Assembly: GCA_028554795.2 (NCBI GenBank)
Contig: CM068828.1
Coordinates: 16,748,630 to 16,812,629 of the forward strand
DNA: 64,000 nucleotides
Source of the DNA: Sinohyriopsis cumingii
Taxonomy: Eukaryota > Mollusca > Bivalvia > Unionida > Unionidae
Direction: 5' to 3'
Shown here one piece after another: positions 13,228 through 35,975 of the stretch (position 1 is the first letter of the stretch; every line of letters begins with the position of its first letter). The notes beneath the pieces were generated by a model. That model did not search any database. It was not told the origin of the DNA and saw only the letters and a program-made list of their open reading frames with translations. Both the position numbers and the translations under genes were made by a program.

Positions 13228-13233
13228 AATAAA
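13228..13233 (+). terminator. AATAAA polyadenylation signal after protease (A)
   Basis: AATAAA lies 91 bp after the protease stop in an AT-rich tail, with the same signal in B at 38466-38471. It marks the likely 3' end of the capsid/protease gene block, in contrast to the histone-type signals of the terminal genes further right. Confidence 0.5.
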
Positions 13234-13363: not shown

Positions 13364-13401
13364 GGGGATGTTTTCCTTCACGTCCGCGCTTTGACTTTAA
13401 G
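13364..13401 (+). promoter_or_regulatory. Right-end promoter module 1 (A)
   Basis: A G-rich start and the core GATGTTTTCCTTCACGTC followed by CGCGC (13364-13389) is followed after 5 bp by CTTTAAGAA, a weak TATA-like box, about 60 bp before the ATG at 13456. The same core precedes all three right-end genes of A and B. Confidence 0.6.
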
Positions 13402-13455: not shown

Positions 13456-13818
13456 ATGTGCTCCAAACTAGCAAAGCTCAACGAAGCCTACGTGAATTTG
13501 CATAGGGTCAGACACAGTCTGATACCGAAGCCAGAAGAAATAGAGAATGTGAGAATGTTAAAAATCACTGAAGACCTGATAGAAGAGCTCTTCAGAGAAG
13601 AAATGAACATGGAGAAAGAAGAATGGACAGAGAAGTACAGACTTCAGAGACAGCAGCAGCAACAGCAACAACAACAACAACAACAGCAGCAGCAACCTGA
13701 ACCTGACAGAGGCTTTGTCGATTGCCGTATCGACACCAAAGAGTTCTTCTCTTTCCGAAGAAGCAGACCTATTGCCAGAAAGTCTATAATCAGAGGACAT
13801 CGCATTCTTAGAAACTAA
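13456..13818 (+). CDS. Right-end gene 1: polyglutamine protein (A)
   Basis: This is a 120-residue protein starting at ATG 13456 (MCSKLAKLNEAYVNLHRV). It has a helical N-terminus, an acidic helix (KITEDLIEELFREE), a polyglutamine run encoded by mixed CAG/CAA codons, and a basic C-terminus (RRSRPIARKSIIRGHRIL). The N-terminal helix resembles that of right-end gene 2 (SKL-KL-E--V-L---R), suggesting they are paralogues. Preceded by the conserved promoter module and followed by a histone-type stem-loop at 13848. Function unknown; the position suggests an early regulatory gene. Confidence 0.65.
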   Translation: MCSKLAKLNEAYVNLHRVRHSLIPKPEEIENVRMLKITEDLIEELFREEMNMEKEEWTEKYRLQRQQQQQQQQQQQQQQQPEPDRGFVDCRIDTKEFFSFRRSRPIARKSIIRGHRILRN

Positions 13819-13847: not shown

Positions 13848-13887
13848 AGCCCTTTTCAGGGCTACCCCAATACTCTAGAAAAGAAAT
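13848..13887 (+). terminator. Histone-type 3' stem-loop plus downstream element (A, gene 1)
   Basis: AGCCCTTTTCAGGGCT at 13848-13863 is a 6-bp stem with a TTTC loop. It is followed by ACCCC and, 13 nt on, AGAAAAGAAA (13877-13886). This matches the layout of replication-dependent histone mRNA 3' ends (stem-loop for SLBP, purine-rich element for U7 snRNA). The stop codon of gene 1 is 30 nt upstream. Confidence 0.7.
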
Positions 13888-14212
13888 AACGATCCATTTG
13901 CCAATGTGTGTAGGTAGAGTAGTGTGAATATAAAACTCTTTATTGATAGTGAGAGTGTATGTGTTTGTGTTTGTAAGAGTTTACGTAAGTTTGTGTGAAT
14001 AGTAGATTGAAATAATGTCTTTTTTGGTGTTTGAGGTGTATATTTGGGGTTAGATTGGATTGCTTTGGGTATGTAAATAGTCTATTGAAGTGATTTATAA
14101 AAAATTTTAAAATAGTGATGGGTAGCATAAAAAAGTGAGTGAGTGTTTCTTTTAGGTCCGCGCGTTGTTTTTTTTGGTCATGATCTAGGTAAGATCAATT
14201 TTATGTTTTAGG

Positions 14213-14250
14213 GGGGATGTTTTCCTTCACGTCGGCGCTTTTACTATAAA
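14213..14250 (+). promoter_or_regulatory. Right-end promoter module 2 (A)
   Basis: Core GATGTTTTCCTTCACGTC followed by GGCGC (14213-14238), then TATAAA at 14245-14250, 52 bp before the ATG at 14302. A partial copy (GGTCCGCGCG at 14155) and the segment ATGATCTAGGTAAGATCAA lie just upstream. The same arrangement precedes gene 3 and both B counterparts. Confidence 0.65.
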
Positions 14251-14301
14251 TTGAAACTCGTTCGGCAGTCTAGCTACCCTTGTTGATTGATCAACACCAA
14301 A

Positions 14302-14676
14302 ATGAACACGAGACTGTCTAAACTGCTGGAACTTCATGTGCATCTGGAATATGCCAGGCGCATATTAAATGAACTGGCCGCGGAAGCCATTGTGGAGGAG
14401 GGAAGGATAAAAGAGGAGGAGGAAAGAAGAAATAAAGAAGAGGAGGAGAGAAGATATACAGAAGAAGAGGAAAGAAGATACAAAGAGGAGGAGAGAAGAT
14501 ACAAAGAAGAGGAGGAGGAAAAGGAGAGAAGAAGAAAAAATTTCAGAATCCCAGAAACCGAAAATTGGGATTCTGAAGCCACATATCCTGCCTCTGCTCT
14601 CTCCCCCCAAAAGGTAAAAAGTAACTGGGGGACAAGATGTGTATGTGGCGCCAGGCCTGGAAGGTGTCACCATTAA
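14302..14676 (+). CDS. Right-end gene 2: Glu/Arg-rich coiled-coil protein (A)
   Basis: This is a 124-residue protein from ATG 14302 (MNTRLSKLLELHVHLEYA). After the N-terminal helix comes a long charged repeat (EEERRYKEEE units), expected to form a single alpha helix or coiled coil. It ends in a distinctive conserved tail, RCVCGARPGRCHH, with three Cys and two His that could bind metal. The B homologue (39567-40037) has a longer, different middle but keeps both ends. Followed by a histone-type stem-loop at 14708. Function unknown. Confidence 0.6.
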   Translation: MNTRLSKLLELHVHLEYARRILNELAAEAIVEEGRIKEEEERRNKEEEERRYTEEEERRYKEEERRYKEEEEEKERRRKNFRIPETENWDSEATYPASALSPQKVKSNWGTRCVCGARPGRCHH

Positions 14677-14707
14677 CCTGGTGTCCATGAAGTTCAAAAA
14701 AAAAAAC

Positions 14708-14745
14708 AGCCCTTTTCAGGGCTACCCAATACTCTAGAAAAGAAA
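14708..14745 (+). terminator. Histone-type 3' stem-loop plus downstream element (A, gene 2)
   Basis: AGCCCTTTTCAGGGCT at 14708-14723 is followed by ACCC and AGAAAAGAAA at 14736-14745. It is the same arrangement as after gene 1, 31 nt behind the stop codon of gene 2. Confidence 0.7.
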
Positions 14746-14943
14746 TAACGATCGATTTGCCAATGTGTGTAGGTAGAGTAGTGTGAATATAAACACTAAC
14801 TCTTTATTAATAGTGGGAGTGTATGTGTTTCTGTGTTTGTGTTAGTAACTGTTCACGTAAGTTTGTGTGAATAGTAGATGATGGGTTTCTTAGCGTAGGT
14901 GGAGAGTATAGTTTGGGTTTTATTATATGAAATGAGAAAAGTA

Positions 14944-15057
14944 GGGGATGTTTTCCTTCACGTCCGCGCGTTGCTGTTTCTTTGGTCATGATCTAGGTAA
15001 GATCAATTTTATGTTTTAGGGGAATGTTTTCCTTCACGTCCGCGCATTCACTATAAG
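14944..15057 (+). promoter_or_regulatory. Right-end promoter module 3, duplicated box (A)
   Basis: Two copies of the module core (14944-14969 and 15019-15045) flank the segment ATGATCTAGGTAAGATCAA. Only the second is followed by a TATA-like box (TATAAG, 15052-15057), 57 bp before the ATG at 15114. The first copy may be an upstream activating site (inference). Confidence 0.6.
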
Positions 15058-15113
15058 AACCCACAGTATTCGTCGTTCAAACCATTCTACAAAGAAGATG
15101 GCTTCTAACCAAA

Positions 15114-15488
15114 ATGGACAAAATACAAACATTGCAAGACGTTTTAGACAACTTAGGAATGATGGAACAGATGTTAATAAGACTCGTTGAAGACCATTAT
15201 TCCTATAATCCCCATCGTGTAAAGATGGAAATTAATAACTTAAAAAAGGTAAAGGACAAGATTAGTGGTGTCATGAAAGAGATAAAGGAGGAGAAGGAGG
15301 ATGAAGAGGAAAGAATAAGAATAAGCAAATGGAACGAAAAAATTGAAAAAGAAGAAGAAAATGAGAAGAGGAAGAAAGAAGAGGAGGAAGAGAAGAAGAA
15401 AGAAGAGCAGGAGAAAAAAAAGAAAGTGAAGAAGAGAAAGAGTGTAGGAGATAAAATAAGAACTTGGTGGAGAAAAAGAAGAAATTAG
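15114..15488 (+). CDS. Right-end gene 3: Glu/Lys-rich coiled-coil protein (A)
   Basis: This is a 124-residue protein. The N-terminal 60 residues (LQDVLDNLGMMEQMLIRL; DHYSYNPHRVKMEINNL) are conserved with B. The next 50 are almost only Glu and Lys. The C-terminus is basic and aromatic (SVGDKIRTWWRKRRN), possibly membrane- or nucleic-acid-binding. In B translation starts at an upstream ATG (MASNHLNK). In A the equivalent ATG (15098) is out of frame, so the start at 15114 is the best available. Followed by a histone-type stem-loop at 15511. Function unknown. Confidence 0.6.
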   Translation: MDKIQTLQDVLDNLGMMEQMLIRLVEDHYSYNPHRVKMEINNLKKVKDKISGVMKEIKEEKEDEEERIRISKWNEKIEKEEENEKRKKEEEEEKKKEEQEKKKKVKKRKSVGDKIRTWWRKRRN

Positions 15489-15510
15489 AAGCAGAAGAAG
15501 AAAACCCAAA

Positions 15511-15550
15511 GGCCCTTTTCAGGGCCCGCCATATTTCTCGAAAAGAGATA
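15511..15550 (+). terminator. Histone-type 3' stem-loop plus AAAAGAG element (A, gene 3)
   Basis: CCAAAGGCCCTTTTCAGGGCC (stem-loop proper 15511-15526) has both the stem and the 5' CCAAA flank of animal histone messages. CGAAAAGAGATAG follows at 15539-15551, and AAAAGAG is complementary to the CUCUUUU of U7 snRNA. It lies at the inner edge of the terminal repeat. Confidence 0.75.
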
Positions 15551-21301: not shown

Positions 21302-21600
21302 AGTAGTGAATGGGGATACCCTACGGACAATGGGAATTAGCATTACAGAACCCCTTGGGACACTCTACGGACAATGGAAATTTAACATGGCGAAAAATCG
21401 TGGGACACTCTACGGACAAGGGGAATTAACATGGGAATAAATCGTGGGACACTCTACGGACAAGGGGAATTAACATGGGAATAAATCGTGGGACACTCTA
21501 CGGACAAGGGGAATTTTTAAAAAATTTTTAAAAAAGGGGTAGGCAATGGAAAGGCTATCTCTTTTCGAGAAATATGGCTGGCCCTGAAAAGGGCCTTTGG
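21302..21600 (+). repeat. Left terminal inverted repeat of element B (299 bp)
   Basis: It matches the reverse complement of 40873-41127 from the AGTAGTG end to the CTTTGG at 21600. It carries five imperfect tandem units with the core GGGACACTCTACGGACAA, the last ones exactly 44 bp long. The right repeat has one unit fewer, which explains the 44-bp length difference. Its inner end holds a histone-type stem-loop for the minus-strand gene. Confidence 0.93.
21557..21595 (-). terminator. Histone-type 3' stem-loop plus AAAAGAG element (left-end gene 1, B)
   Basis: On the minus strand CCAAAGGCCCTTTTCAGGGCC (stem-loop 21595-21580) stands 22 nt after the stop codon of the gene at 21618-21848. CGAAAAGAGATA follows at 21566-21555. 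The whole signal lies inside the terminal inverted repeat. Confidence 0.75.
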
Positions 21601-21617
21601 TTTATGTTAATATGCCC

Positions 21618-21848
21618 TTAACATAAAGGGCATTTGCGACATCTTCTTGTCCTCAAACTTCGTCTTACAGCAGGGCCATACATCAGAGTCCTCTTGAGGC
21701 AACCTTGTCTCTCTATATAGACTCTTCTTATCCACAGGCTGCTGTTGGTCCTGTGGACAACGGTCCACTTGGATCGGACATACATGAGCATGTCCGTCCT
21801 GAACATCATTGTTGACACAAGGGTTGAAGATTCAACGTCTGTCCACAT
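21618..21848 (-). CDS. Left-end gene 1: small basic Cys-containing protein (B)
   Basis: This is a 76-residue Arg-rich protein (MWTDVESSTLVSTMMF ... ) ending RTRRCRKCPLC, where the C-x2-C-x2-C tail could bind metal. I regard it as real because it has a complete set of signals on the minus strand: TATAAATA at 21900-21893, 45 bp before the ATG, and a histone-type stem-loop just after the stop. No family recognised. It is divergent to left-end gene 2, and probably an early gene (inference). The equivalent part of element A is outside the window. Confidence 0.55.
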   Translation of the reverse strand: MWTDVESSTLVSTMMFRTDMLMYVRSKWTVVHRTNSSLWIRRVYIERQGCLKRTLMYGPAVRRSLRTRRCRKCPLC

Positions 21849-22067
21849 GTTGAGGCTCCGAGAATAGGTGAATCAATGCAGTGAACGGCGCTTATTTATA
21901 GGGACAGGAAGGATTGAAACGGATTGAGTTCATTCACCAATCCGAACACGCGTTACAGAATTCAGTCAGCCCGCATCCAATCCGAAGAGTGCAGTCTGTG
22001 ACGTCACGTAGTTTATATAGATTCGCTAGCGCTTGTGTGCAGTCAATCTATGCGACAGTGATTCAAC
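21849..22067. promoter_or_regulatory. Divergent promoter of left-end genes, with CRE and CCAAT boxes
   Basis: Leftward TATAAATA at 21893-21900 and rightward TATATAG at 22014-22020 point away from each other. Between them lie two direct CCAATCCGAA repeats (from 21937 and 21977) and a perfect palindromic cAMP-response element TGACGTCA at 21999-22006, 7 bp before the rightward TATA box. This looks like a host-factor-responsive early promoter (inference). Confidence 0.6.
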
Positions 22068-22642
22068 ATGACGGAAACTCAGAAAACGATCCATTGGGGT
22101 GCACCAGCAGGGGAGACTGCCCAAGGGAACTCGGACTTACTTTCAGAAGAGGTGAATTGGGATTTTGTGGATTTTCTCTCCTCGCAAGAATTTGTTCCGG
22201 AACCTTCGTTACCTTCTTCATTACCGCAAGTGGAGAATTTTAGACAGAGACAGAAAGAAGAATTGGAGAAATTTATACAACGACAAAAGGAAGCGGAACA
22301 GGCTTTTCTCCTACAGCAACAGCAACAAGAAGAAGAGGTAAGAAAAAACAACAGCAACAACAGCAAGAAGAAGTAGCAGCAAAGAAACAAGAGGGTGAAA
22401 ATCAAACGGTCACGGTACTGTTGGACATTTTAGCGGAGTTAAGAAGTCTGAAACAAATATATCAGACTTCTTTATCACGACCGAAGAGAATACGACCTTC
22501 CCGAGCTAAACACGTCAACCCTGTGACTAAGCCTACCGTACCACCCTTAGTGATTTCAACCCAATCATCATCAACATTACGCAGTCCAGAAGTAGGCCTT
22601 GGCCGTGGCAAAGGCATAAGGCAGTTAAAGTTGATTGCTTAA
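22068..22642 (+). pseudogene. Left-end gene 2: Gln/Glu-rich protein with frame break (B)
   Basis: The first frame (22068-22376) starts MTETQKTIHWGAPAGET. It has an acidic-hydrophobic stretch (SEEVNWDFVDFLSSQEF) and then a Gln/Glu-rich coiled coil, and stops at a TAG. An overlapping frame, two bases back, continues the same Gln/Glu-rich composition and ends in a basic region (SRPKRIRPSRAKH) at 22642. The switch lies at an A6 run near 22341-22347, so a one-base loss is the simplest explanation. A strong splice-donor-like AG|GTAAGA at 22336-22343 is an alternative. It has a TATA box and CRE upstream and a histone-type stem-loop at 22669. Function unknown. Confidence 0.5.
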
Positions 22643-22668
22643 ACTCACCCCTTCACCATGAAGAAAAA

Positions 22669-22707
22669 GGCCCTTTTCAGGGCCAGCCACATTTCTCGAA
22701 AAGAAAT
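22669..22707 (+). terminator. Histone-type 3' stem-loop plus downstream element (left-end gene 2, B)
   Basis: GGCCCTTTTCAGGGCC at 22669-22684, then AGCCA and CGAAAAGAAATA at 22697-22708, begins 26 nt after the stop codon at 22642. It has the same layout as the signal at the right end but lies outside the inverted repeat. Confidence 0.72.
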
Positions 22708-22844
22708 ACAATTTCAATTTGCCAATAACTCAAAAAAAACCCCACCCATTTTACCCTTATAGTACGTGTCTGTGTATGAGTGTGTGAGTGTAGCTTCTTA
22801 TTTAAAATCACAACTCAAAGACACTTACCTTTTATCATTCATTT

Positions 22845-22850
22845 ATTCTT
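22845..22850 (-). terminator. Possible AATAAA signal for the zinc-knuckle gene
   Basis: On the minus strand AATAAA occurs about 80 bp after the stop codon of the zinc-knuckle gene, within AT-rich sequence. No histone-type stem-loop is present for this gene. Confidence 0.35.
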
Positions 22851-22927
22851 TTATCCATTTTTTTTACAATCCAATTCACAACACAACACTTTAATAAAAA
22901 GTTCATTGACTTCTTCTTTCTCCTTGT

Positions 22928-23401
22928 TTACTCTCTCTGTTTTTTAAATTTCTTCACCGTCTTTTCCTCATTTTCTTCCCTTCTTCTTTTCTTCTTCTCC
23001 TGTTTCTTTGCCTCTTGTAAATAGAATTGTCTTTTTTTTTCCTCTTCTTCCTCAGAAGAATCCCTCTCTTCCTCTGAAGAATCCCTTTCTTCTTCTGAAG
23101 AATTCCTCTTTTCTTCTGACTCCTCTTGTTTCTTTTTTGGGCAATCTGGAGACCAATGTCCTTTTTCTTTACAATAATAACAGGTATCTTGACTTTTGTC
23201 TTTTTTAGTCCCTGTTTTTGTTCTTTTTTGACGGTCTGGACACTCTGAAGACCAATGCCCTTTCTTCTGACAGACATAGCAAGTATCTTGACTTTTATCT
23301 CGAAAGGAAGGAGAGTAGTCCGTAGGCTGGTCTGAAGAGAATTTTCTAATGACCCCTCGCAAAGCTCTGACGAAACGTTCCATCTGGTTAGTCTCTTCCA
23401 T
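22928..23401 (-). CDS. CCHC zinc-knuckle protein, divergent to PolB (B)
   Basis: This is a 157-residue protein from the ATG at 23401 (MEETNQMERFVRALRG). A start at 23449 is possible but lies only 6 bp from its TATA box (23464-23455), so the transcript probably begins after it. Two zinc knuckles (CYVCQKKGHWSSEC and CYYCKEKGHWSPDC) match C-x2-C-x4-H-x4-C, as in retroviral nucleocapsid and CNBP proteins, and imply single-strand nucleic acid binding. An acidic repeat (ERDSSEEERDSSEE) and a Lys-rich helix follow. It shares a short bidirectional promoter with PolB, suggesting co-expression with replication (inference). The A counterpart lies outside the window. Confidence 0.75.
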   Translation of the reverse strand: MEETNQMERFVRALRGVIRKFSSDQPTDYSPSFRDKSQDTCYVCQKKGHWSSECPDRQKRTKTGTKKDKSQDTCYYCKEKGHWSPDCPKKKQEESEEKRNSSEEERDSSEEERDSSEEEEEKKRQFYLQEAKKQEKKKRRREENEEKTVKKFKKQRE

Positions 23402-23535
23402 CGTTGTGCTCGGCTTGAGAGTGAAATGAATAGTGAAAGGACAAGACACACACCCTTTTATATACGCTGGTCTGCTATGACTATAAAGTAGTTTATGGTG
23501 TTTGAACTTGAGTCATTTGACTTTTTGCTTTCAAG
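23402..23535. promoter_or_regulatory. Bidirectional promoter between zinc-knuckle gene and PolB (B)
   Basis: Leftward TATATAAAAG (23464-23455) and rightward TATAAAG (23483-23489) are 18 bp apart on opposite strands. The PolB ATG is 47 bp after its box. Confidence 0.6.
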
Positions 23536-26500
23536 ATGAAACGATCCCATTCATTCGAGAAGAAAGAAGAAGAAGAAAGTAAGAGGCAGAAACGTGATCT
23601 ATCGCCTCGTACCAGGGCTGAAATCTTGGCACAAATTCATGCCAGTGATTTTGAAGAGGACATGAGTGAACCAGAATCCGAACCCTCTAAACCAAGTCCA
23701 CCACCCTTTGTCAACCCTGAAAAGTACTATTCCATTCGAGAGACGGAAAAGCGCTCCTCTAGAAAATTTAGAACCACGGCTTACAAATACACGGTGAAGT
23801 TTAAAGATTTCAAGGCTGAAGTGCCGTTAGAGAAAGCAGAAGTGTTCATCACCGAGGTGTGGGATTCTTTGCTCACTGCACTCAAGCGACAATGTCAACC
23901 CAAAGAAGACGATCGCTTGAGACTTTCCATACAACACGACGGTTTGAAATCCCCTGTTTGGATCGAGTTTAGCACCCCTGCAGAATTGACTGCTTCCAAA
24001 GTCATGGACAAGATTCAACACGTACAACAATCTAATGATCAGTTTGACATCACCGATGGTAAAGCCACACTGGACATGACCCACGTCTCTCCTCCTCAAG
24101 GGACAGGACGCAAAAAGATGTTATTGGTGGACGACCTTCGCAACACCAAAACGAGTCTCGTCCGAATTAACAACCCTCATGACCAGATGTGTTTAGCCCG
24201 TGCCATCGTGGTGGGACGAACCTATGCCAACAAGAACGACACGGTAGAATGGAAAAGAACCTGGGACACTATTCAACGTTCCGACCGAGCCAAACAACGA
24301 AACGAAGCAGAACTCCTGTTACAACAAGCCGGACTGCCCAAAGACACACTCTGCGGCATTCCTGAGATGCAAAAATTGCAAGATGTCCTAGCTCCACGAT
24401 ACACCTTGAAAGTGCACCCTCAAGAAATGCGCGGGCCTCTATTGTTTCGAGGCCAAGATTTTAAGGACGGAAAATACATTCATGTTTATCATCACGATGA
24501 CCATTTCGATACCATTACCAGTATCACCGGATTCCTAGTATACGGTTATTACTGTGAGAAATGTGACCATGGTTATAACAATCGAGAGCAACACAAGCAT
24601 TGTGGATCGAAATGCACAGGATGTTTGGCCTCTTCACCCTGTCTGAGCGAAGAACCAGTGCCTTGTTCAACTTGTCTGCGCACGTTTGTCAGCCCTACCT
24701 GTTACCAACAACATTTGAAGACGCAAGGTTCACAGAAAAAATGCGCTTGTCAACTCCTGAGATTGTGCTCTACGTGTGGACAAGGCATACGTACCAATAG
24801 TACCAAGGCACACGTATGTTCAGGAAAAAAGAAATGTCACATTTGTCATCACATCGTGGACTTGGAACACGAATGTTACGTGCAAAAATACCAACCCCCA
24901 ACAGAGAAAGAGGACAGTCACAAGAAGAAAGGCAATTTCATCTTTTTCGATTTCGAATGCATGCAAGAGACTGGTATTCACATTCCTAATTTCTGCGTGG
25001 CTCATCGAGCGTGCGAGAAGTGCATTCAAGAACCTATCTTCAGTCATTGCCCTCACTGCAGCAAGATTCCCGGAGGACGTGAAAAAATCTTTCGGGGACC
25101 AAACACGTTAGCCGATTTTGCCCAATGGGTCTTAGACCCCGTCGACAAGACGTGGAGCCAAGAGGACATCGAACGTTACGGAGATTGTCATCGTCATGCC
25201 ACGGTGATGGCTCACAATTTCTCCGGATACGATGGACAGTTTCTTTTGAGGTACTATACGGAACAAGGCACCGAGCGTCCTAAAGTGACTTTGAACGGAG
25301 CCAAAATCATTTTCATGCAAGTGGGACAAGTGCAGTTTAAAGATTCGATGAGCTATTTGGCCATGCCTTTGAGTCGAATGCCTAAAACGTTTGGAATGAC
25401 AGAAATGGCTAAAGGGTACTTTCCACACTTTTTCAATACGGAAGCCAATCAACATGCCGTTCTACCCCATTTGCCTGAGGCTCACTATTACGACCCCGAC
25501 AACATGCGTACCGAACAACGAGAAGCTTTCTACGCTTGGTACCAGATTCACGCCTCGGACCCTTTCGACTTTCAGGAAGAAATGCTAAAGTATTGTCGTG
25601 CCGACGTGGACATTTTACGGCGTTGCTGTGGAAAATTTCGAGAACTGTTCATGGAACACGGAGGGGTCGATCCTTTGAAAGAAGCTTGCACCATTGCCAA
25701 AGCGTGTTCCTTAGTGTATCGACAACGATTCATGCCTGAAAACACCGTAGCTGTCATCAGCCCTCAAACGACCCACTTTGTCAAACGTCAATACTCGGTC
25801 AAAGCCCTACGTTGGTTACATTACTTGTGCGACAAGGAAGACAAGTGGATTCAGCATGCCCGCAACGGAGGGGGCGAAAAGACCATCGGAACGTATTCGG
25901 TCGATGGCTGGGACTTAGAAAACCCCAAGATCGTGTACGAGTTTAACGGTTGCTTATTTCACGGATGTCCCGTCTGTTACCCTGACCGTGGCACCAAGAA
26001 TCAGTTTTTGCAACGAACCATGGAAGACTTGTACCAGGACACTTGTCAGCGACGCCTAAAGTTAGAACAGCAAGGATACCAAGTGGTGGAAATGTGGGAA
26101 CACGAGTACGATCACCGTATGAAAACCGATCCCGAGTTTAAAGACCTCGTGGAAAGTTACCAGTTCATGGACCCGCTGAACCCGAGGGATAGTTTGTACG
26201 CAGGAAGGACCAATGCCACCTGTTTGCTGTACCAAGCCGACGAAGAGAAAGGAGAAGAAATCAAATACTTGGACGTGTGTTCGCTGTATCCCTACGTGTG
26301 CAAATATTGTCGCTTTCCTGTAGGGCACCCGCAATTGTTAACGGAACACATCGACCTGAAAAACATTCGACAATACGAAGGCTTGATCAAGTGTAAAGTT
26401 TTGCCTCCCACGAACCTATACCATCCCGTCTTACCTCACCATTGTCAAGGCAAACTGATGTTTCCCTTGTGCCGTACTTGTGCCGAAACGTGCAACCAAG

Positions 26501-27600
26501 ACCAACCTTGTCAGCACACCCAGGAAGAACGTGCCTTGACGGGAACCTGGGTCAGCGTAGAATTGTTCAAAGCTCTGGACATGGGATACGAACTGTTAGA
26601 AGTATACGAAATTTGCCACTTTCCCAAGACACAACAGTACCACAAGGGTGACCCTACTCAGAAAGTCATTTTCGCCGACTACGTGGATGCCTTTTTGAAA
26701 CTGAAGCAAGAAGCCAGCGGCTATCCTTCCTGGTGTCACACTCCCGAAGACCAAATAAAATTCAAAGAGAAATATTACGAACAAGAAGGCATCACTTTAG
26801 ACCACATCGAGAAAAACGAAGGCAGGCGATCGTTTGCCAAAGTGATGTTAAATTGCTTGTGGGGTAAAATGGCACAACGGCCGTGTTTACCCAAGACGGA
26901 ATATTTGACAGAACCTTCCCGCTACTTCCAGATGATTCACGACAAAACCAAATACATGAAACACGTGGACGTCGTTCGAGAGAATTTAATCTTGGTCAAT
27001 TACGAAGAAGATCTGGACTTTGTACAAGACGACCCTTTTGGAAATGTCATCATTGCGGCTTACGTGACAGCCCATGCTCGCTTAAAATTGTACGAAGCTT
27101 TAGAACTGTTAGAAGAACGCGTCCTGTACTTTGACACGGACAGTTGCATTTACATCCATCACCCGATTCAACATCACCCTAACATCGAAGGAGACTGTTT
27201 AGGAGCCTGGACAGACGAGCATCCCGACGACAAGATTCTAAGTTTCGTCAGTGGCGGTCCCAAAAATTACGGCTACGAATACCGGGACAAACAAGGAGAA
27301 GTGCACACGACGTGCAAAGTGAAAGGACTGACTCTGAATTATCGTACCAGTCGAGTGGTCAACTTTGGGGTATTGAAAGAAGCCTTGCAATCGGGAGAGG
27401 ATGGAAACTTTAAAGTGACCACCTATCAACCGAACAAGATTGTACGTTTACCCACTCACCACATCGTCAGTCGACCCTTGGAAAAAGTCTATCAAATCGT
27501 GTACCAGAAGCGAGTGCGACTTCCCAATCATTTCACCTTACCGTACGGTCACGTTGGTATTGGTCTGTATATAAAAAGGAACCCTAGGCAAGATCGATAG
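23536..27600 (+). CDS. PolB: Protein-primed DNA polymerase B, full length (B)
   Basis: This is a 1,354-residue replicative polymerase. The N-terminus (1-260) is charged. Residues about 335-455 hold a Cys/His-rich zinc-finger region (YYCEKCDHGY ... CHICHHIVDLEHEC). The exonuclease motifs are IFFDFECMQE (about 470), HNFSGYDGQF (about 560) and YCRADVDIL (about 686). The polymerase motifs are DVCSLYP (about 914), KVMLNCLWGKM (about 1102) and YFDTDS (about 1198). The layout is that of Polinton protein-primed B-family polymerases. The frame is uninterrupted, unlike copy A, whose C-terminus is shifted. The start is chosen for its TATA box at 23483. The TATA box of the next gene lies inside the last codons. 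Confidence 0.95.
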   Translation: MKRSHSFEKKEEEESKRQKRDLSPRTRAEILAQIHASDFEEDMSEPESEPSKPSPPPFVNPEKYYSIRETEKRSSRKFRTTAYKYTVKFKDFKAEVPLEKAEVFITEVWDSLLTALKRQCQPKEDDRLRLSIQHDGLKSPVWIEFSTPAELTASKVMDKIQHVQQSNDQFDITDGKATLDMTHVSPPQGTGRKKMLLVDDLRNTKTSLVRINNPHDQMCLARAIVVGRTYANKNDTVEWKRTWDTIQRSDRAKQRNEAELLLQQAGLPKDTLCGIPEMQKLQDVLAPRYTLKVHPQEMRGPLLFRGQDFKDGKYIHVYHHDDHFDTITSITGFLVYGYYCEKCDHGYNNREQHKHCGSKCTGCLASSPCLSEEPVPCSTCLRTFVSPTCYQQHLKTQGSQKKCACQLLRLCSTCGQGIRTNSTKAHVCSGKKKCHICHHIVDLEHECYVQKYQPPTEKEDSHKKKGNFIFFDFECMQETGIHIPNFCVAHRACEKCIQEPIFSHCPHCSKIPGGREKIFRGPNTLADFAQWVLDPVDKTWSQEDIERYGDCHRHATVMAHNFSGYDGQFLLRYYTEQGTERPKVTLNGAKIIFMQVGQVQFKDSMSYLAMPLSRMPKTFGMTEMAKGYFPHFFNTEANQHAVLPHLPEAHYYDPDNMRTEQREAFYAWYQIHASDPFDFQEEMLKYCRADVDILRRCCGKFRELFMEHGGVDPLKEACTIAKACSLVYRQRFMPENTVAVISPQTTHFVKRQYSVKALRWLHYLCDKEDKWIQHARNGGGEKTIGTYSVDGWDLENPKIVYEFNGCLFHGCPVCYPDRGTKNQFLQRTMEDLYQDTCQRRLKLEQQGYQVVEMWEHEYDHRMKTDPEFKDLVESYQFMDPLNPRDSLYAGRTNATCLLYQADEEKGEEIKYLDVCSLYPYVCKYCRFPVGHPQLLTEHIDLKNIRQYEGLIKCKVLPPTNLYHPVLPHHCQGKLMFPLCRTCAETCNQDQPCQHTQEERALTGTWVSVELFKALDMGYELLEVYEICHFPKTQQYHKGDPTQKVIFADYVDAFLKLKQEASGYPSWCHTPEDQIKFKEKYYEQEGITLDHIEKNEGRRSFAKVMLNCLWGKMAQRPCLPKTEYLTEPSRYFQMIHDKTKYMKHVDVVRENLILVNYEEDLDFVQDDPFGNVIIAAYVTAHARLKLYEALELLEERVLYFDTDSCIYIHHPIQHHPNIEGDCLGAWTDEHPDDKILSFVSGGPKNYGYEYRDKQGEVHTTCKVKGLTLNYRTSRVVNFGVLKEALQSGEDGNFKVTTYQPNKIVRLPTHHIVSRPLEKVYQIVYQKRVRLPNHFTLPYGHVGIGLYIKRNPRQDR
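27568..27576 (+). promoter_or_regulatory. TATA box inside the 3' end of PolB (B)
   Basis: TATATAAAA lies 57 bp before the ATG at 27633, the same position as in element A. Confidence 0.55.
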
Positions 27601-27632
27601 TTCATTGGGACTACCAAGACCGAGCGAACAAG

Positions 27633-28376
27633 ATGAATACTTTGAAAGAGACATCGTTCCAGTTTGGGGATTGTAAAAAAGTTGTATCTTCCTCTAGTGT
27701 GACTAATACTGGATGGATAAGACCCAGGCATTGCGACGGAAAATGTCCGGAAGGAAACTGCGATTGTCCATGTGGTTACCATTGTAATTGCGTAACGGAG
27801 TTTGCAGACGAGTGCGATTGTGAGCCTTGCGATGTGTACGATGCTGTACGTTGTGACCTGAGCGATGCCGTAAAGCATCATGGGAACTTTAGTGTCCCTA
27901 CCCCTATCATGGAAAGCGATGCTGTGCGTGTCAAACCTGTGGGATGCGAAAGTGATGCCGCTCGTCCTCTTGGACATTTTACTGGGTTTCGTTTTAAAGG
28001 GGAATGTTCACCTTCACGTCTACCCCCCTACGGATGTCATCCAGCCCTGAGCAAACTCCTGCCCATGTCACTCAATCCTCATCGAAACGAACCTGTGAAA
28101 GACGAATATTAGTTCCCTGTGCGTTTGTCGGAATACTTCGACTTTGAAAATCGTCTTCAATCGTTCAAAGGAAAATGGCCTAAGTATCTGGGAGGATCGA
28201 CCCCCGAAGAATTAGCCAGAGCCGGATTTTTCTACTTGGGCGAAGGAGATAAAGTCAAGTGCTTCAGTTGCGGTGTGTCACTTCACCACTGGGAACCACA
28301 AGATTCGGCCTACGTTGAACATGCTCGATGGTCACCGAATTGTCATTACTTACCTTTAGTGGGACCGAGACATTGA
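27633..28376 (+). pseudogene. BIR-domain (IAP-like) protein, nonsense-mutated (B)
   Basis: The N-terminal part (MNTLKETSFQFGDCKK) has an additional Cys-rich stretch compared with A (CDGKCPEGNCDCPCGYHCNC), which may be the ancestral form. A TAG at 28110-28112, where A has TCG, separates it from the BIR domain. The BIR domain itself remains open in frame (28119-28376) with the full zinc pattern. No ATG is seen in a good position to start the BIR domain alone. Confidence 0.85.
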
Positions 28377-28404
28377 AGTAACTTCTTACCAAAATAATCT
28401 GTTC

Positions 28405-28860
28405 ATGAATACTTTACAAGAGAACATTCGTGCTTTGCCTGTGGAGTTGAGAGAACGCATTTACCGAGAGCTGGTCAAAATACAAGTGAAACGTAAAGAA
28501 CAATTGCATCCGTTACGTCACCGGTGTTTGAACCACTGGTACCTTCAGGCTATACAAGGACTGATTGAGTTGAAAGTGTTCCATTGGACAGACATTGATC
28601 AACGACCTCCTGGTTATAAAAAGGAATGGTTTGGTATTGACGATTCTATCTACTACATTGTAAACGTACTGCATCGAATTCCAGAGGAAGAGTTAACGAA
28701 TTACCAACATCTTTCACGCAATGTCAACTTAGTGAAAGAGGAAACTTCTGAACGAATTGTAATGTGTAGATTAGTGGTGAAATGATTTAGATTCGACAAT
28801 GAATTAAAACCATGTTTGTGCAAACAGTACATTTCTTGTGTCAGACCAAAGAGGATTTAG
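28405..28860 (+). pseudogene. F-box-like protein, paralogue 1, truncated by stop (B)
   Basis: MNTLQEN followed by ALPVELRERIYREL and a body matching the A gene at 2906. A CGA to TGA change (28783-28785) ends translation after 126 residues. The remaining sequence to 28860 still encodes the conserved CLCKQYISCVRPKR end in frame. The F-box-like N-terminus would survive, so a shortened product is possible. Confidence 0.55.
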
Positions 28861-28872
28861 TATGACCTATTC

Positions 28873-29391
28873 ATGGATACTTTGCTAGAGAACATTCGTG
28901 CTTTGCCTGTGGAGTTGAGAGAACGCATTTACCGAGAGCTGGTCAAAATACAAGTGAAACGTAAAGAACAATTGCATCCGTTACGTCACCGGTGTTTGAA
29001 CCACTGGTACCTGAAGGGTATAAGAGAACTGATTCGTCAGAAATTGTTTCAATGGTCAGACCTTGTTCAATACTTCCAGGCCCCCGATGATTCACGTGTT
29101 GATCATTTTGGTTACTTCGAGATTCACCTAGAGCAACCCATTGAGGAAGACGAGGTAAAGGATTACCAACATATTTTCCGTGGAATCTACTTAGCGGAAG
29201 AGGAAACTTCTAATCGAACTCTGACGTTTCGGTTACAGTATGCAAGATTTACATTCCCCACTGGAGAACGAAGATCACTGGCTAGAAAGTACGTGTATTC
29301 TTTTCGAAACAAAGAGACTATAAAAACAGGCAGCTATGCCACGACTTATGTCGTATGTCATCCAACAGATTCCGTGGAAGGAACTCAATGA
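28873..29391 (+). CDS. F-box-like protein, paralogue 2 (B)
   Basis: This is a 172-residue protein from MDTLLEN with the ALPVELRERIYREL motif and the first 58 residues nearly identical to paralogue 1. The remainder corresponds to paralogue 3 of A (HWYLKGIRELIRQKLFQWSD ... RRSLARKYVYSFRNK). The near-perfect N-terminal match between paralogues suggests recent gene conversion. TATAAAA at 29319-29325 near its end belongs to the next gene. Confidence 0.6.
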   Translation: MDTLLENIRALPVELRERIYRELVKIQVKRKEQLHPLRHRCLNHWYLKGIRELIRQKLFQWSDLVQYFQAPDDSRVDHFGYFEIHLEQPIEEDEVKDYQHIFRGIYLAEEETSNRTLTFRLQYARFTFPTGERRSLARKYVYSFRNKETIKTGSYATTYVVCHPTDSVEGTQ

Positions 29392-29560
29392 CCATATTCA
29401 AACCGTGGATCATTACCATCGATTATTACAAGAACTTTATCCATTCAATTTGGGACGACAAGTGGTGTGTGTCTTAGTGACTTGTTTTCTGGGATTTCGT
29501 TTACCAGCCGATTCTTTGTGGACTCTTTACGATCAGTACTTACCACCTCCATGGCCTTAA
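29336..29560 (+). CDS. Small conserved ORF of unknown function (first of overlapping trio, B)
   Basis: These 74 residues (MPRLMSYVIQQIPWKEL) match the A ORF at 4073 with few substitutions. TATAAAA at 29319-29325 is 11 bp before the ATG. Its end overlaps the next ORF (29551) in another frame. Confidence 0.5.
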   Translation: MPRLMSYVIQQIPWKELNDHIQTVDHYHRLLQELYPFNLGRQVVCVLVTCFLGFRLPADSLWTLYDQYLPPPWP

Positions 29561-29892
29561 ATGGTCACGAAAAACTCCTTTTGCTCAAAGCCTTGCGGTT
29601 TCATCTGGATACTTCTCGACCTCAACAGGAAAAAAAGATTCGTCAACTTTTAGCTACCCAAGACGTGTATGACGATGTGTGTGTAGCTTGTGACTTACAC
29701 CCTCATTGGACAGATGTTCGTGACTGGAAAAAGGGGGGTTTTGAGGCTTGGACCCAAGAAGTGGCCCAGTATGCACAAGAGTTGTTCAAGGAAAAAAGTT
29801 ACTTTTCAACCTGTGTTAGTGACGGTGCCAGAAGAACCCGTCACCGAGAACAACCACTCGCTTCAGGACAGGACTGTCATGGACATTCCTGA
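29551..29892 (+). CDS. Conserved hypothetical protein MALNGHEK (second of overlapping trio, B)
   Basis: A 113-residue counterpart of the A gene at 4288, with the same start and the same VCVACDLHPHWTDV segment. The C-terminus is longer because of a small insertion (near HREQPLASGQD). Helical and charged; function unknown. Confidence 0.55.
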   Translation: MALNGHEKLLLLKALRFHLDTSRPQQEKKIRQLLATQDVYDDVCVACDLHPHWTDVRDWKKGGFEAWTQEVAQYAQELFKEKSYFSTCVSDGARRTRHREQPLASGQDCHGHS

Positions 29893-30100
29893 AAGGTCAT
29901 TCCGGGAGGACACTTGTGTGACAATACCTCATGTAGAGACTGTAAGAACATTACACACTGTCCCTAGGACATCTTGGTTACCCAAAACATGTTGTACAGA
30001 CACTTGTTTATATTCCACTTTGATCGCTTTGCTGTGTTTTATATTCCTGTACATCACTATTTGGGTTGTATGTATTTTTGTCTTTCGTGTTCATATTTGA
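29879..30100 (+). CDS. Small tail-anchored membrane protein (third of overlapping trio, B)
   Basis: From ATG 29879 (MDIPERSFREDTCV) the frame gives 73 residues: a Cys cluster (KTCCTDTCLYS), then one C-terminal membrane segment (LIALLCFIFLYITIWVVCIFVF). The start used in A is GTG here, so B either starts later, as annotated, or at in-frame ATGs upstream (29714) that overlap the second ORF. The membrane segment is conserved in character rather than in exact sequence. Confidence 0.45.
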   Translation: MDIPERSFREDTCVTIPHVETVRTLHTVPRTSWLPKTCCTDTCLYSTLIALLCFIFLYITIWVVCIFVFRVHI

Positions 30101-30107
30101 AACATTC

Positions 30108-30137
30108 AATAAACGTGTTCTGAAAAAAGTATATAAA
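30108..30137 (+). promoter_or_regulatory. AATAAA signal and ATPase TATA box (B)
   Basis: AATAAA at 30108-30113 and TATATAAA at 30130-30137, 47 bp before the ATPase ATG, are arranged as in element A. Confidence 0.6.
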
Positions 30138-30184
30138 CTCTTGTCTTGTTTGTTTTTCGTGTCACAAGTGACATTTCTCAAACC

Positions 30185-30940
30185 ATGGCTACCTCTGCTG
30201 TCTCTGCTCCCTCTTCCTCTACTGTCAAAGTCATCGACGAACACTTAGATCGTGCCAGTTGGGAGGCTTTGTATCTTCGCCATCCCTTTAACATGCTCAT
30301 TGCTGGACCTAGCGGTTCAGGCAAAACCGAATTCGTCAAACGTTTGATCGAACATAAACATCATTTGATCGATCGGCCACCTCAACGGATCGTGTGGTGT
30401 TACAAAGAGTGGCAATCGGCGTACAGCCTTTTGCGAGAAAGTCAAGGCGATTCCATCGTGTTTGTGGAAGGCATTCCTAAAGAAGACGACGGCATCGTCT
30501 CTGACTCCCGTCAAACCCATTTGGTCATTTTCGACGACATGTTAGGAGAAGACGAAGAAGAAATTAAATTGTGGTTCACGCGCAAAGGGCATCACCGTAA
30601 TGCCAGTGTCGTTTACATCACCCAAAATTTGTTTCAACAAAGTAAAGCCCATCGCACCATCAGTCTCAATGCACATTACGTGGTCTTGTTTAAAAGCCCT
30701 CGAGATAAATCGCAAGTGCAAGTCTTAGCCAAACAGTTAGGAACGCCTTGGCTGACTCAGGCGTACGACGATGCCACTCAAACGCCACACGCCTATTTAC
30801 TCGTCGATTTGAAACCTACCACTCCCGAGGATTTGCGATTTCGTACCCACTTGTTTCACCACTGGTGCCAAGACGGAGGGCCTGTCCTGTACTCGTCTCC
30901 GTCCTCGACTTCATTTCACTCCCCATCAAAAAATCTATAA
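30185..30940 (+). CDS. ATP: FtsK/HerA-type genome packaging ATPase (B)
   Basis: 251 residues from ATG 30185, with Walker A GPSGSGKTEF and Walker B HLVIFDDMLGED. Only a handful of residues differ from A (for example D to H at residue 20, S to F near residue 170). Fully open. The next gene's TATA box overlaps the stop codon (30936-30943). Confidence 0.92.
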   Translation: MATSAVSAPSSSTVKVIDEHLDRASWEALYLRHPFNMLIAGPSGSGKTEFVKRLIEHKHHLIDRPPQRIVWCYKEWQSAYSLLRESQGDSIVFVEGIPKEDDGIVSDSRQTHLVIFDDMLGEDEEEIKLWFTRKGHHRNASVVYITQNLFQQSKAHRTISLNAHYVVLFKSPRDKSQVQVLAKQLGTPWLTQAYDDATQTPHAYLLVDLKPTTPEDLRFRTHLFHHWCQDGGPVLYSSPSSTSFHSPSKNL

Positions 30941-30943
30941 AAA
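30936..30943 (+). promoter_or_regulatory. TATA box overlapping the ATPase stop codon (B)
   Basis: TATAAAAA, 39 bp before the core-protein ATG at 30982; sequence and spacing are the same as in A. Confidence 0.55.
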
Positions 30944-30981
30944 CCTCAGACCCTTTTTCGTCTGTCTCACACAGTGTGAAC

Positions 30982-31929
30982 ATGACGTCCCTTCAGTCGC
31001 ATCTTCCCGTCAAATTGATTCGTGCCTTGTATGGCATCAGTCGAGAAAAAGATCCACAAACACGAGTTCGTGTCTTAGAAGCTAGTCTCAAAGAAGTCTT
31101 ACGATGGTTTACGGTGACGGCACGTCAATTACTCCAAGGAATCATTCAGATTCCTCATCAAACCCAACGCTTTTTCGATCGAAACAAAGTCGCTTTGGTC
31201 CAACTGGCCGATCCCCGCATCGACACTCAAACCAAAAAACAAATCATTTTGAAACCTGGAGGGAGCGGTACTCTAGGAGGGGTCATCATTCGCTCACTCT
31301 TAAGATGGGATCCTAATGCCCCCAAAGTTATCCCTAAGACAAAAGTCCAACGAAGCCCCAAGAAGAAAAAGACCAGGTCCCCAAAGAGAAGAACTTCTCC
31401 AGTGGCGGGACCCTCCTCTTACCAGACACCACCCCGGAAAAAGAAAAGAAGCCCCAAGAAAAAGAAACAGAGAAAAAGTCCCCAGAAAAAGAAAAGTCCA
31501 CAGAAGAAAACTAGTCGTAAGAGAGGCACTGCGGCCAGGACACAGCCTTACACTCGCAAACCACGACCTGCCACAGCGGTGACTGTGTCTCCGACAGCCT
31601 CACGTTTATCCACTTCTCCGTTGATGTCACCAGGAACTGAAGAGTATTTGGAGACGTTAATCACACCAAGAACTTCTCCGTTGATGACCCCCAAAAGAAC
31701 TTCCCCAGTGGCAGGACCCTCCAATTTAGTGGCAGTGGCTGCTGCTCACAAAGTACCTTCTCCCAAAATCAAAGTCCATGAAAGATCGGGCATGTTACAA
31801 AGTTTACTGGATTTGTCCAAGCAAGAACTGACTCGATTTAGTTCGTTACGTACCCCTGCACGACGTGTCATGCCTGTCATGAAGTTGATACGCCGTAAAG
31901 ACAATCAGTGGCGACGCGTTCCAGTATAA
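30982..31929 (+). CDS. Basic core-like protein with KSP-rich tail (B)
   Basis: 315 residues. The N-terminal 110 residues are almost identical to A. The Lys-Ser-Pro tail (RSPKKKKTRSPKRR, RKSPQKKKSPQKK) differs by small substitutions and one extra residue. Expected to condense the element's DNA within the particle (inference from composition). Confidence 0.65.
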   Translation: MTSLQSHLPVKLIRALYGISREKDPQTRVRVLEASLKEVLRWFTVTARQLLQGIIQIPHQTQRFFDRNKVALVQLADPRIDTQTKKQIILKPGGSGTLGGVIIRSLLRWDPNAPKVIPKTKVQRSPKKKKTRSPKRRTSPVAGPSSYQTPPRKKKRSPKKKKQRKSPQKKKSPQKKTSRKRGTAARTQPYTRKPRPATAVTVSPTASRLSTSPLMSPGTEEYLETLITPRTSPLMTPKRTSPVAGPSNLVAVAAAHKVPSPKIKVHERSGMLQSLLDLSKQELTRFSSLRTPARRVMPVMKLIRRKDNQWRRVPV

Positions 31930-31988
31930 AAAAGGCCTGTGACCAAGTAGGGTATCAGTGTTCTTTTGGTGCTCCTAAAGACTCAAAG

Positions 31989-32375
31989 ATGTCACCCTCC
32001 AGAAAACCCCAAGGAAAGAAAAGGAAAGGACTGCCACCACGTTTAGCCAAACATGGGGACCTGTTATCTGTCCTGTCCAAAGCTTCTCCACCCCTACGAA
32101 AAAAACTCATTCAAACAGCCTCCAAAGAGGTCATCGATACCGTGTGCGAATGTTGTTTGAACGTTTTGAAAGGCACGATCCCTTTGTCCAAACACCAGAA
32201 ACAATGCTTAGGCAAACATCGTCACGTTCTTCGCCAAATGGTTCAAAAGAAAATCCCCATTCGTCAAAAAAAGAAGATGTTAGTGCAACGTGGAGGCATT
32301 TTGCCTCTCTTGTTAGGCCCCATACTGAAAGGAGTCTTGGGAACCATGTTGGGAGGACTGATGGGAGCAAGATAA
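31989..32375 (+). CDS. Small basic pX/minor-core-like protein (B)
   Basis: 128 residues from ATG 31989 (MSPSRKPQGKKRKG), with VIDTVCECCLNVLKG, LVQRGG and the hydrophobic glycine-rich C-terminus. The frame is open upstream to 31908 without an ATG, so the internal ATG shared with A is taken. Confidence 0.65.
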   Translation: MSPSRKPQGKKRKGLPPRLAKHGDLLSVLSKASPPLRKKLIQTASKEVIDTVCECCLNVLKGTIPLSKHQKQCLGKHRHVLRQMVQKKIPIRQKKKMLVQRGGILPLLLGPILKGVLGTMLGGLMGAR

Positions 32376-32424
32376 AAAGGCCTTCGAAAATCCCAAGATC
32401 TCAGAATCGACCCCTGACAACCCC

Positions 32425-33060
32425 ATGGAAGGACGAAAACTAGCTTTAGTGCCTTACAAACGATGGATGGAATACCATCGGTGGCAAGAACAACGCACCC
32501 CGCATTTACCTCCCAATCCCAATTTGAGCGAGATGTCCCAGTTACAACACGAATTGCAGTCCTTGATGGATCGCCAAGATTTGTCCGAAACAGAAAAATC
32601 GCAAAAGTACGGTCAACTCTTGCAACGACTGCAACTCTTTCACCAGAAAGCTTTAGACGAAACAGCTCTACCCACTCTGAAAGATTTTAAGACCTTGATG
32701 AAAAGTCCAGCACCATCACCAGTACCAGTACCAGTACCAGTGACCAAGACAGAAAAAGGAAAAGAAGAAGAAGAAGAAGGGTTTCAAACTCCACCAGAAA
32801 AAGTACGCAAGTTAACAACACCACCTACCTCCAGAATTGGATGGATTAAAAAGATGATGGCCACCCCTTCTTCATCACAAGAGAAAAAGAAAGTGAAGAC
32901 AGAAGTGAAGACAGAAGTGAAACAAGAACCGATATCCCCCGCTCAGACATCCTCCTCCTCTTCGACACCTATTGCCGGTCGCACACGCAAAGCCTTGCAA
33001 TCCAAGAAAATACCCCAAGAGAAAAAGAGTAGCCTCTTCCAAGAGTGGGTGCCTTATTAA
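32425..33060 (+). CDS. Coiled-coil protein with variable low-complexity tail (B)
   Basis: 211 residues. The first 95 residues match A. The middle is different, with PVPVPVPV, KGKEEEEE and a repeated VKTEVKTEVKQEP stretch, and is 22 residues shorter overall. The end (FQEWVPY) again resembles A. See the A entry at 7118 for interpretation. Confidence 0.6.
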   Translation: MEGRKLALVPYKRWMEYHRWQEQRTPHLPPNPNLSEMSQLQHELQSLMDRQDLSETEKSQKYGQLLQRLQLFHQKALDETALPTLKDFKTLMKSPAPSPVPVPVPVTKTEKGKEEEEEGFQTPPEKVRKLTTPPTSRIGWIKKMMATPSSSQEKKKVKTEVKTEVKQEPISPAQTSSSSSTPIAGRTRKALQSKKIPQEKKSSLFQEWVPY

Positions 33061-33082
33061 CACACCAACCAACACAAAAAAA

Positions 33083-34193: not shown

Positions 34194-34198
34194 CCATC

Positions 34199-35538: not shown

Positions 35539-35545
35539 GTAAGTC

Positions 35546-35962: not shown

Positions 35963-35975
35963 GACACAGAGAAAA

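Follow-up and report, generated by a model that had tools for sequence, protein, structure and literature searches.

Histone-type 3′-end sequences and promoter blocks on the terminal genes of Polintons in the bivalve Sinohyriopsis cumingii

The mRNAs of animal replication-dependent histone genes are cut by the U7 small nuclear ribonucleoprotein (snRNP) 4-5 nt past a stem-loop and carry no poly(A) tail, as described in PMC7026596. Here, we report 3′-end sequences of the same kind on the small terminal genes of Polintons in the bivalve Sinohyriopsis cumingii. The window analyzed is a 64,000-nt stretch (contig CM068828.1 of GCA_028554795.2, positions 16,748,630 to 16,812,629 of the forward strand; positions below count from its first letter). 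It holds a partial Polinton, element A, and a complete one, element B. Among the papers listed in our literature searches, we found no earlier report of histone-type ends in a Polinton, transposon or virus. The words "histone" and "stem-loop" are absent from PMC11071308; PMC11071296 names histones twice, for histone-like viral proteins, and lacks "stem-loop".

Searching the window for the pattern RGCCCTTTTCAGGGCY with up to two mismatches, we find eight occurrences in 64 kb, against 0.01 expected by chance from shuffled sequences. The Rfam histone stem-loop model, RF00032 (E ≤1), a check proposed along with the original prediction, matched the same eight sites and no additional one in the window. 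Three matches, all in element B, exceeded the gathering score (21555-21600 on the minus strand, 22664-22708 and 40873-40918), and the remaining five, including all three of element A, fell under it (E 6.4e-5, 1.3e-4, 2.7e-4, 2.7e-4 and 0.16). Every stem-loop sits 3′ of a small terminal gene of A or B, 22-31 nt past the stop codon, with GAAAAG 13-14 nt further on. The original prediction had described three such stem-loops behind the right-end genes R1, R2 and R3 of element A, 22-31 nt past the stops and each followed after 12-14 nt by a downstream element. Their positions and sequences proved exact (AGCCCTTTTCAGGGCT at 13848 and 14708, GGCCCTTTTCAGGGCC at 15511). The distances are 29, 31 and 22 nt from the stop codons of R1, R2 and R3, and 14, 13 and 13 nt from stem-loop to GAAAAG. 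The count of three genes is right for element A and incomplete for the window, since five more stem-loops lie in element B, including a pair near the left terminus. The layout of B comprises R1, R2 and R3 at the right end and a divergent pair, L0 (minus) and L1 (plus), at the left end. The terminal features of element A, ending in elements like the histone downstream element (HDE), are as follows.

13367..13389, plus strand: H2B/H1-type promoter block of A-R1, exact to the searched pattern
13456..13818, plus strand: A-R1 gene, about 120 aa, Gln-rich middle, basic C-terminus; counterpart of B 38692-39063; single weak Pfam match
13848..13863, plus strand: A-R1 histone-type stem-loop; RF00032 E 0.00027, below gathering score
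13878..13887, plus strand: A-R1 HDE-like GAAAAGAAAT, 14 nt past the stem-loop
14146..14166, plus strand: H4-type promoter block 5′ of A-R2, 21-mer identical to the host H4 promoter
14216..14238, plus strand: A-R2 H2B/H1-type promoter block, 1 mismatch, then TATAAA
14302..14676, plus strand: A-R2 gene, an open reading frame (ORF) with C-terminus RCVCGARPGRCHH
14708..14723, plus strand: A-R2 histone-type stem-loop; RF00032 E 6.4e-5, below gathering score
14737..14746, plus strand: A-R2 HDE-like GAAAAGAAAT, 13 nt past the stem-loop
14947..14969, plus strand: A-R3 first promoter block, exact
15023..15045, plus strand: A-R3 second promoter block, 1 mismatch, then TATAAG
15114..15488, plus strand: A-R3 gene (ORF), Glu/Lys-rich, basic C-terminus
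15511..15526, plus strand: A-R3 histone-type stem-loop; RF00032 E 0.00013, below gathering score
15540..15549, plus strand: A-R3 HDE-like GAAAAGAGAT, 13 nt past the stem-loop

Those of element B, bounded by terminal inverted repeats (TIRs), are given in the same manner.

21302..41127: element B; TIRs 21302-21608 and 40865-41127; target duplication GTTCAG at 21296-21301 and 41128-41133
21580..21595, minus strand: L0 stem-loop, within the left TIR; RF00032 35.6 bits, E 1.2e-6; GAAAAG 21566-21561
21618..21848, minus strand: L0 gene (ORF), 76 aa, Arg-rich (P0142)
22068..22642, plus strand: L1 gene, frame interrupted in the B copy, intact copies elsewhere in the genome
22669..22684, plus strand: L1 stem-loop; RF00032 34.4 bits, E 3.5e-6; GAAAAG at 22698
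38603..38625, plus strand: B-R1 H2B/H1-type promoter block, exact
38692..39063, plus strand: B-R1 gene, 123 aa
39094..39109, plus strand: B-R1 stem-loop; RF00032 E 0.00027; GAAAAG at 39124
39406..39426, plus strand: H4-type promoter block 5′ of B-R2, 21-mer identical to the host H4 promoter
39478..39500, plus strand: B-R2 H2B/H1-type promoter block, 1 mismatch
39567..40037, plus strand: B-R2 gene, 156 aa
40064..40079, plus strand: B-R2 stem-loop, one change giving a T-G pair; RF00032 E 0.16; GAAAAG at 40094
40313..40335, plus strand: B-R3 first promoter block, 2 mismatches
40383..40406, plus strand: B-R3 promoter block, 24-mer identical to the host H2B promoter
40469..40855, plus strand: B-R3 gene, 128 aa
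40878..40893, plus strand: B-R3 stem-loop, within the right TIR; RF00032 35.6 bits, E 1.2e-6; GAAAAG at 40907

The host histone genes form tandem repeats with a unit of about 8.27 kb, and the 2.9-Gb assembly contains 114 H4 matches. For the comparison we read one unit (L135), which carries H4, H2B, H2A, H1 and H3. The stem-loop is GGCCCTTTTTAGGGCC in H4 and H3, GGCCCTTTTCAGGGCC in H2B, GGCCCTTTTAAGGGCC in H2A and GGTCCTTTTCAGGACC in H1; those of H4, H3 and H2B all fit GGCCCTTTTYAGGGCC. They score 35.0-39.4 bits with RF00032, and GAAAAG follows 13-14 nt past the stem-loop in all five genes. Looking in this unit for histone genes with a clearly different stem-loop, we found the same kind on each of the five. 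The host unit thus has like stem-loops and spacing, and the Polinton stem-loops are therefore of the host type, with the host's spacing. The flank before the stem-loop is CCAAA or AAAAC in the Polintons and mostly AAAC in the host unit. The original suggestion of a borrowed histone 3′ pathway gains support from the like stem-loops, GAAAAG and spacing of the host unit.

The likeness extends to the promoters, which the original prediction had missed, as it had the left-end genes. The block GATGTTTTCCTTCACGTCCGCGC or a near form occurs eight times in the window, 5′ of R1, R2 and R3, and not once in the shuffles; its GTCCGCGC part likewise has eight occurrences, each in R1-R3 promoters. The host H2B promoter holds the block, with 24 bases identical to the B-R3 promoter. 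The block of the H1 promoter has one mismatch to GATGTTTTCCNTCACGTCCGCGC, and in the 5′ region of H2A it is inverted with four mismatches. The H4 promoter contributes TTTCTTTTAGGTCCGCGCGTT, a 21-mer found exactly 5′ of R2 in both A and B. These 24-mer and 21-mer words are the longest common to the histone unit and the 64-kb window. The stem-loop comes next, and outside the terminal genes the longest matches are three 16-base words. In its motifs, the 3′ end of every terminal gene family matches the host histone genes, and for the right-end genes the promoter does so too.

Performing an RF00032 search of the genome, we scored 75 of 589,472 candidates, which is not a full ranking; the hits ranged from 34.5 to 45.6 bits, all above the gathering score. 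We retrieved 68 of these 75 loci, and every one of the 68 is a Polinton end. They include no histone gene, although the scores of the histone stem-loops fall inside this range; the absence reflects the small share of candidates scored and not the score. In the control set, the model matched in one prokaryote, below the cut-off. To the 68 loci and the window we aligned six terminal proteins (R1, R2, R3, alternative R3, L0 and L1) by tblastn, and counted the 124 copies whose match extends to the C-terminus and leaves enough sequence beyond it. The alternative R3 is a different gene (MDVEYV..., 182 aa in L069) that replaces R3 in some elements (L069, L073), with the stem-loop present and, mostly, the promoter block.

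A stem-loop with at most one mismatch is present in 120 of the 124 copies, and 103 show no mismatch. Because the loci had been chosen by stem-loop, we also left out the stem-loops that had served as search anchors, and 77 of 81 copies still had one. GAAAA or RAAAAGA follows in 121 copies, 13 nt (114) or 14 nt (7) past the stem-loop, and is missing in three. The first stem pair is G-C in 86 copies, A-T in 31 and other in seven; A-T prevails in R1 and R2, and G-C in the other families. Conversely, for 147 of 153 stem-loops a terminal-gene match on the same strand ends no more than 250 nt upstream, and each of the 68 loci has at least one. Of the other six, two lie at locus ends, one (L134, 961) comes directly after a TIR end, and three were seen by eye to follow an R3-like C-terminus. 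Among fetched copies with enough upstream sequence, 42 of 43 right-end genes have GTCCGCGC in the 250 nt 5′ of their start (R1 2/2, R2 16/16, R3 14/14, alternative R3 10/11). The full block is found in 35 of these 43 and a TATA-like motif, by a loose pattern, in 41. Upstream of L0 and L1, all 95 copies have CCAAT, and 94 of the 95 have a TGACGT/ACGTCA motif. As a separate observation, TTTCAATTGCCTA or ATTTGCCAA is conserved 3′ of GAAAAG in six gene families (13894-13904, 22710-22725, 40920-40934 and equivalents in the window), and the host H2A gene has CAATTTTGCCA at about equal distance.

Genome-wide, the exact 3′ module GCCCTTTTCAGGGC-N12-16-GAAAAGA occurs 53,193 times and the exact promoter block GATGTTTTCNNTCACGTCCGCGC 31,228 times; the reversed control gave 0 for each. 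Both counts include the host H2B modules or the H2B and H1 blocks, by our reckoning a few hundred at most. A chance origin of the stem-loops and promoter blocks was rejected on the shuffles (0.01 and 0) and these reversed patterns. Counted by eye, the first 100 module sites (first 3.1 Mb, one contig) include 18 pairs that diverge with a spacing of about 1.1 kb; at about 17 kb from the pairs stand groups of at most three modules, in the order expected of whole elements. Assuming five modules per element, we estimate a Polinton family on the order of ten thousand elements. The exact modules are about 90 times as many as the histone genes (about 570, on the assumption that every one of the 114 H4 matches marks a unit of five).

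Relatives point in the same direction. L1 has 19 homologues, mostly on short contigs, with 56-69% identity except P0121 (91%), and L0 has two, with 70 and 75%. One relative of each, P0129 for L1 and P0141 for L0, reads through past the usual stop, so that its protein can be back-translated over the 3′ end. P0129 accommodates the stem-loop, 13 nt, GAAAAG and on to CGAAAAGAGATA with one mismatch; none of 2000 shuffles and none of 7048 other protein windows fitted equally well. P0141 accommodates the stem-loop, 13 nt and GAAAA with no mismatch, or GAAAAGA with one. For the GAAAA form, none of 1000 shuffles was equally good, and the best of 139 other proteins gave 5. Both are compatible with AATTGCCAA farther on. 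Relatives with 65-75% identical proteins thus very probably have the same 3′ end. In IMG/VR, no relatives were found by PolB, PolB alignment, L1 alignment, promoter block or 3′ module. Among 65 stretches with the bare 16-mer, the loose purine pattern occurred in five and, by eye, in none at 13-14 nt; RF00032 was absent from the 16 of them scanned with Rfam. A search of genome contigs gave four distant PolB loci in prokaryote assemblies.

Taking these observations together, we consider it very likely that the terminal genes (L0, L1, R1, R2 and R3 or its alternative) are expressed as mimics of the host replication-dependent histone genes. Their transcripts would be processed as histone mRNAs and accumulate in S phase. 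The promoter blocks would recruit the same transcription factor or factors as histone genes and might do so at the histone locus body. For L0 and L1, which share a divergent promoter region with CCAAT and cAMP-response-element (CRE)-like motifs and no block, timing may depend on the 3′ end only. No stem-loop follows the putative protease gene preceding R1, which has AATAAA and then a GU-rich stretch behind it (13228 in A, 38466 in B). With an ordinary poly(A) signal retained on this gene, the element probably runs two expression programmes. It may benefit in that small proteins, several with basic C-termini (L0, R1, R3 and alternative R3), are made when host DNA and element replicate; our guess is a DNA-binding role in step with replication. 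The mimicry in full would join histone-type promoters to non-polyadenylated stem-loop mRNAs, coupling the element's expression to S phase and possibly also to the histone locus body, and the element could then compete with the host for SLBP and U7. To this larger claim we give somewhat better than an even chance.

Several points weigh against this reading. The comparison stands on a single histone unit, and the 3′ flank of the stem-loop is ACCCA in the Polintons vs ACACA, ACAAA, ATACA or ACTTT in the host. GTCCGCGC occurs before none of the 95 L0/L1 starts, and the promoter block is absent there. P0129 and P0141 each keep one mismatch to the fuller motif. The L1 copies are young (mean identity 0.958), so the conservation among copies partly reflects shared ancestry. 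Searching the genome for U7 with RF00066, we obtained a best E of 0.27, below the cut-off, for a sequence not U7-like by eye. A AATTTGTCTAG-type pattern gave 23 matches (42 in the reversed control) and a second Sm variant 15 (13 in the control). We read 20 of the former and 8 of the latter and accepted none by eye. Some of these 28 among the 38 candidates have weak hairpins after the Sm-like site, the best at -8.0 kcal/mol (L142), and three (L161-L163) have the 18-mer TCTTTTCAATTTCTCTAG in common, with different flanks. Host SLBP had no match to PF15247, whose controls were empty too, or to a typed human domain, and introns may split such a match. These searches are weak, and the presence of host histone genes implies that both U7 and SLBP exist. 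Finally, poly(A) signals lie 3′ of some stem-loops: AATAAA at 39175 and ATTAAA at 39267 behind B-R1, AATAAA at 22893 behind L1 and ATTAAA at 15615 behind A-R3.

These last signals raise the question of whether the cassette is recognized but minor, most transcripts being polyadenylated downstream and the histone end acting as a back-up or in translation only. Host H4 has AATAAA or ATTAAA downstream as well. So do histone genes of C. elegans, where, according to PMC1924863, such signals are used rarely if at all. Moreover, element A has no AATAAA or ATTAAA between R1 or R2 and the following gene. We therefore regard a minor role of the cassette as unlikely.

A reversed direction, in which the host histone repeat took the promoter block from an abundant Polinton, would suit the 31,228 blocks, of which the histone repeat explains, by our inference from two exact blocks in the unit and 114 H4 matches, a few hundred only. 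However, blocks stand at the promoter positions of three histone genes (the H4 type, H2B and H1), with a degenerate inverted form before H2A, and the 3′ cassette, which is also shared, is the general animal histone one. A transfer from Polinton to host thus seems decidedly improbable.

The stem-loops might also have been captured once and passed on by descent in recently amplified copies, with no present function. Intact copies of L1 have a mean identity of 95.8%, and the TIRs of B, alike in any case, hold two of its five stem-loops. Against this, the cassette is common to gene families of different coding sequence, and much of the stretch before the stem-loop varies. The spacing is exactly 13 nt in 114 of 121 copies, and the first stem pair differs between gene families in a compensated manner. 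Relatives at 65-75% identity imply the same 3′ end, and the ratio of nonsynonymous to synonymous substitutions (dN/dS) of intact copies is 0.40 for L1 (22 copies) and 0.20 for L0 (18 copies). Mere inheritance is, on this evidence, very improbable. That the hairpins serve DNA replication, packaging or plain termination and resemble histone ends by convergence is scarcely credible: hairpins near the ends of a linear element can have a part in its replication, and the TIRs of B hold two of its five, but those of L1, R1 and R2 are outside them, 147 of 153 stand 3′ of a terminal gene on its strand, the right-end genes have histone promoter blocks too, and stem, loop, GAAAAG and spacing match the host histones in ways that a terminator does not need. 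A feature of TIRs only had likewise been considered and rejected, because three stem-loops of B, out of five, lie beyond the TIRs.

The remainder of the window is as follows. Element A extends past the left window edge, and its left end lies outside. It contains a PolB piece (PF03175, E 1.1e-35) and a packaging ATPase (Pox_A32, E 4.8e-8); right after PolB comes a protein with a BIR domain, inhibitor-of-apoptosis-like (2241-2879, PF00653, E 9.5e-24). The TIR of element B begins AGTAGTGAATGG, with the 6-bp duplication GTTCAG flanking both sides. The other features are these.

13228..13233, plus strand: AATAAA, then GU-rich, 3′ of the putative protease gene of A; ordinary poly(A) signal, in contrast to the terminal genes
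23536..27600, plus strand: PolB of B, a core gene recognized by homologues, without stem-loop
32972-33544: rve integrase (Pfam), a separate open stretch in B
33549-34193: chromodomain (Pfam), a separate open stretch in B
38466..38471, plus strand: AATAAA and GU-rich stretch, 3′ of the putative protease gene of B

PolB of B has 1652 homologues at E ≤0.001. The best 120 of these 1652 carry PF03175. Most of the named ones among these 120 come from bivalves (oysters, mussels, clams) and are about 44-50% identical; a coral, echinoderms, a hemichordate and a beetle supply a few others. A Peptidase_C5 match in element B, the adenovirus-type protease, is weak and below the cut-off (E 0.0084). Among the scanned ORFs of A and B, which are part of all ORFs, there was no Pfam match to a double jelly-roll capsid protein. 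Pfam gave nothing informative on the terminal proteins; an RPN2_C match of R3 (E 3e-4) is below the cut-off and lies in charged low-complexity sequence. A structure prediction for L0, with a mean predicted local distance difference test (pLDDT) of 53 from three sequences, was not used. Between L1 and PolB of B, a minus-strand gene (22928-23451) shows, on inspection by eye, motifs like CCHC zinc knuckles; AATAAA stands at 22847 on the strand of this gene. About 0.4 kb right of element B lies a tandem repeat of 61 copies of a 32-nt unit (41535-43496).

Near the right window edge, at 58650-63679 and on into the adjoining sequence (L160), we noticed a different virus-like element that has no histone stem-loop. 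Its domains are a double jelly-roll (PF21738, 60106-61497), a weak Peptidase_C5 (61979-62476) and a T7 tail-fibre-type N-terminus (62516-63679). Just past the window, three palindromic hairpins GAAACTC-NNN-GAGTTTC stand near ORF ends (L160 1805, 2041 and 3437). The first 42 kb of the window contain no such hairpins, which are perhaps another kind of hairpin 3′ end.

If the terminal genes are processed as predicted, they would form a second class of such genes, non-histone and non-cellular, whose members outnumber the histone genes in this genome. Histone mimicry would hint at a way in which Polintons keep gene expression in step with the DNA replication of dividing cells, and competition for SLBP and U7 could link histone supply and transposon load. 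Such a class would also allow natural tests of which promoter blocks and which spacing suffice to make a gene "histone-like". Poly(A)-selected RNA-seq would miss the terminal genes.

With the animal replication-dependent histone 3′ end (RF00032; SLBP, U7 snRNP, CPSF73), the Polinton genes share the stem of 6, the loop of 4, the GAAAAG-type element at 13-14 nt and the place soon after the stop. They differ in that they are not histone genes and belong to a mobile element, and their mRNA 3′ ends are predicted from the sequence. With the host histone repeat they have in common the type of 3′ cassette, present on the five genes of the unit, and the promoter blocks of H4, H2B and H1; unlike it, they encode proteins that are not histone-like and are dispersed across the genome. 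Polinton/Maverick elements and adintoviruses share with the present elements PolB and the A32-type ATPase (seen in A), the rve integrase, TIRs and 6-bp target duplication (seen in B), and the histone-type terminal genes are the difference. A viral link to histones is common to the present case and to viruses that carry histone genes, such as bracovirus, with H4, and the marseilleviruses. Those viruses borrow the histone protein, whereas the Polinton described here would borrow only the regulatory ends of the histone genes.

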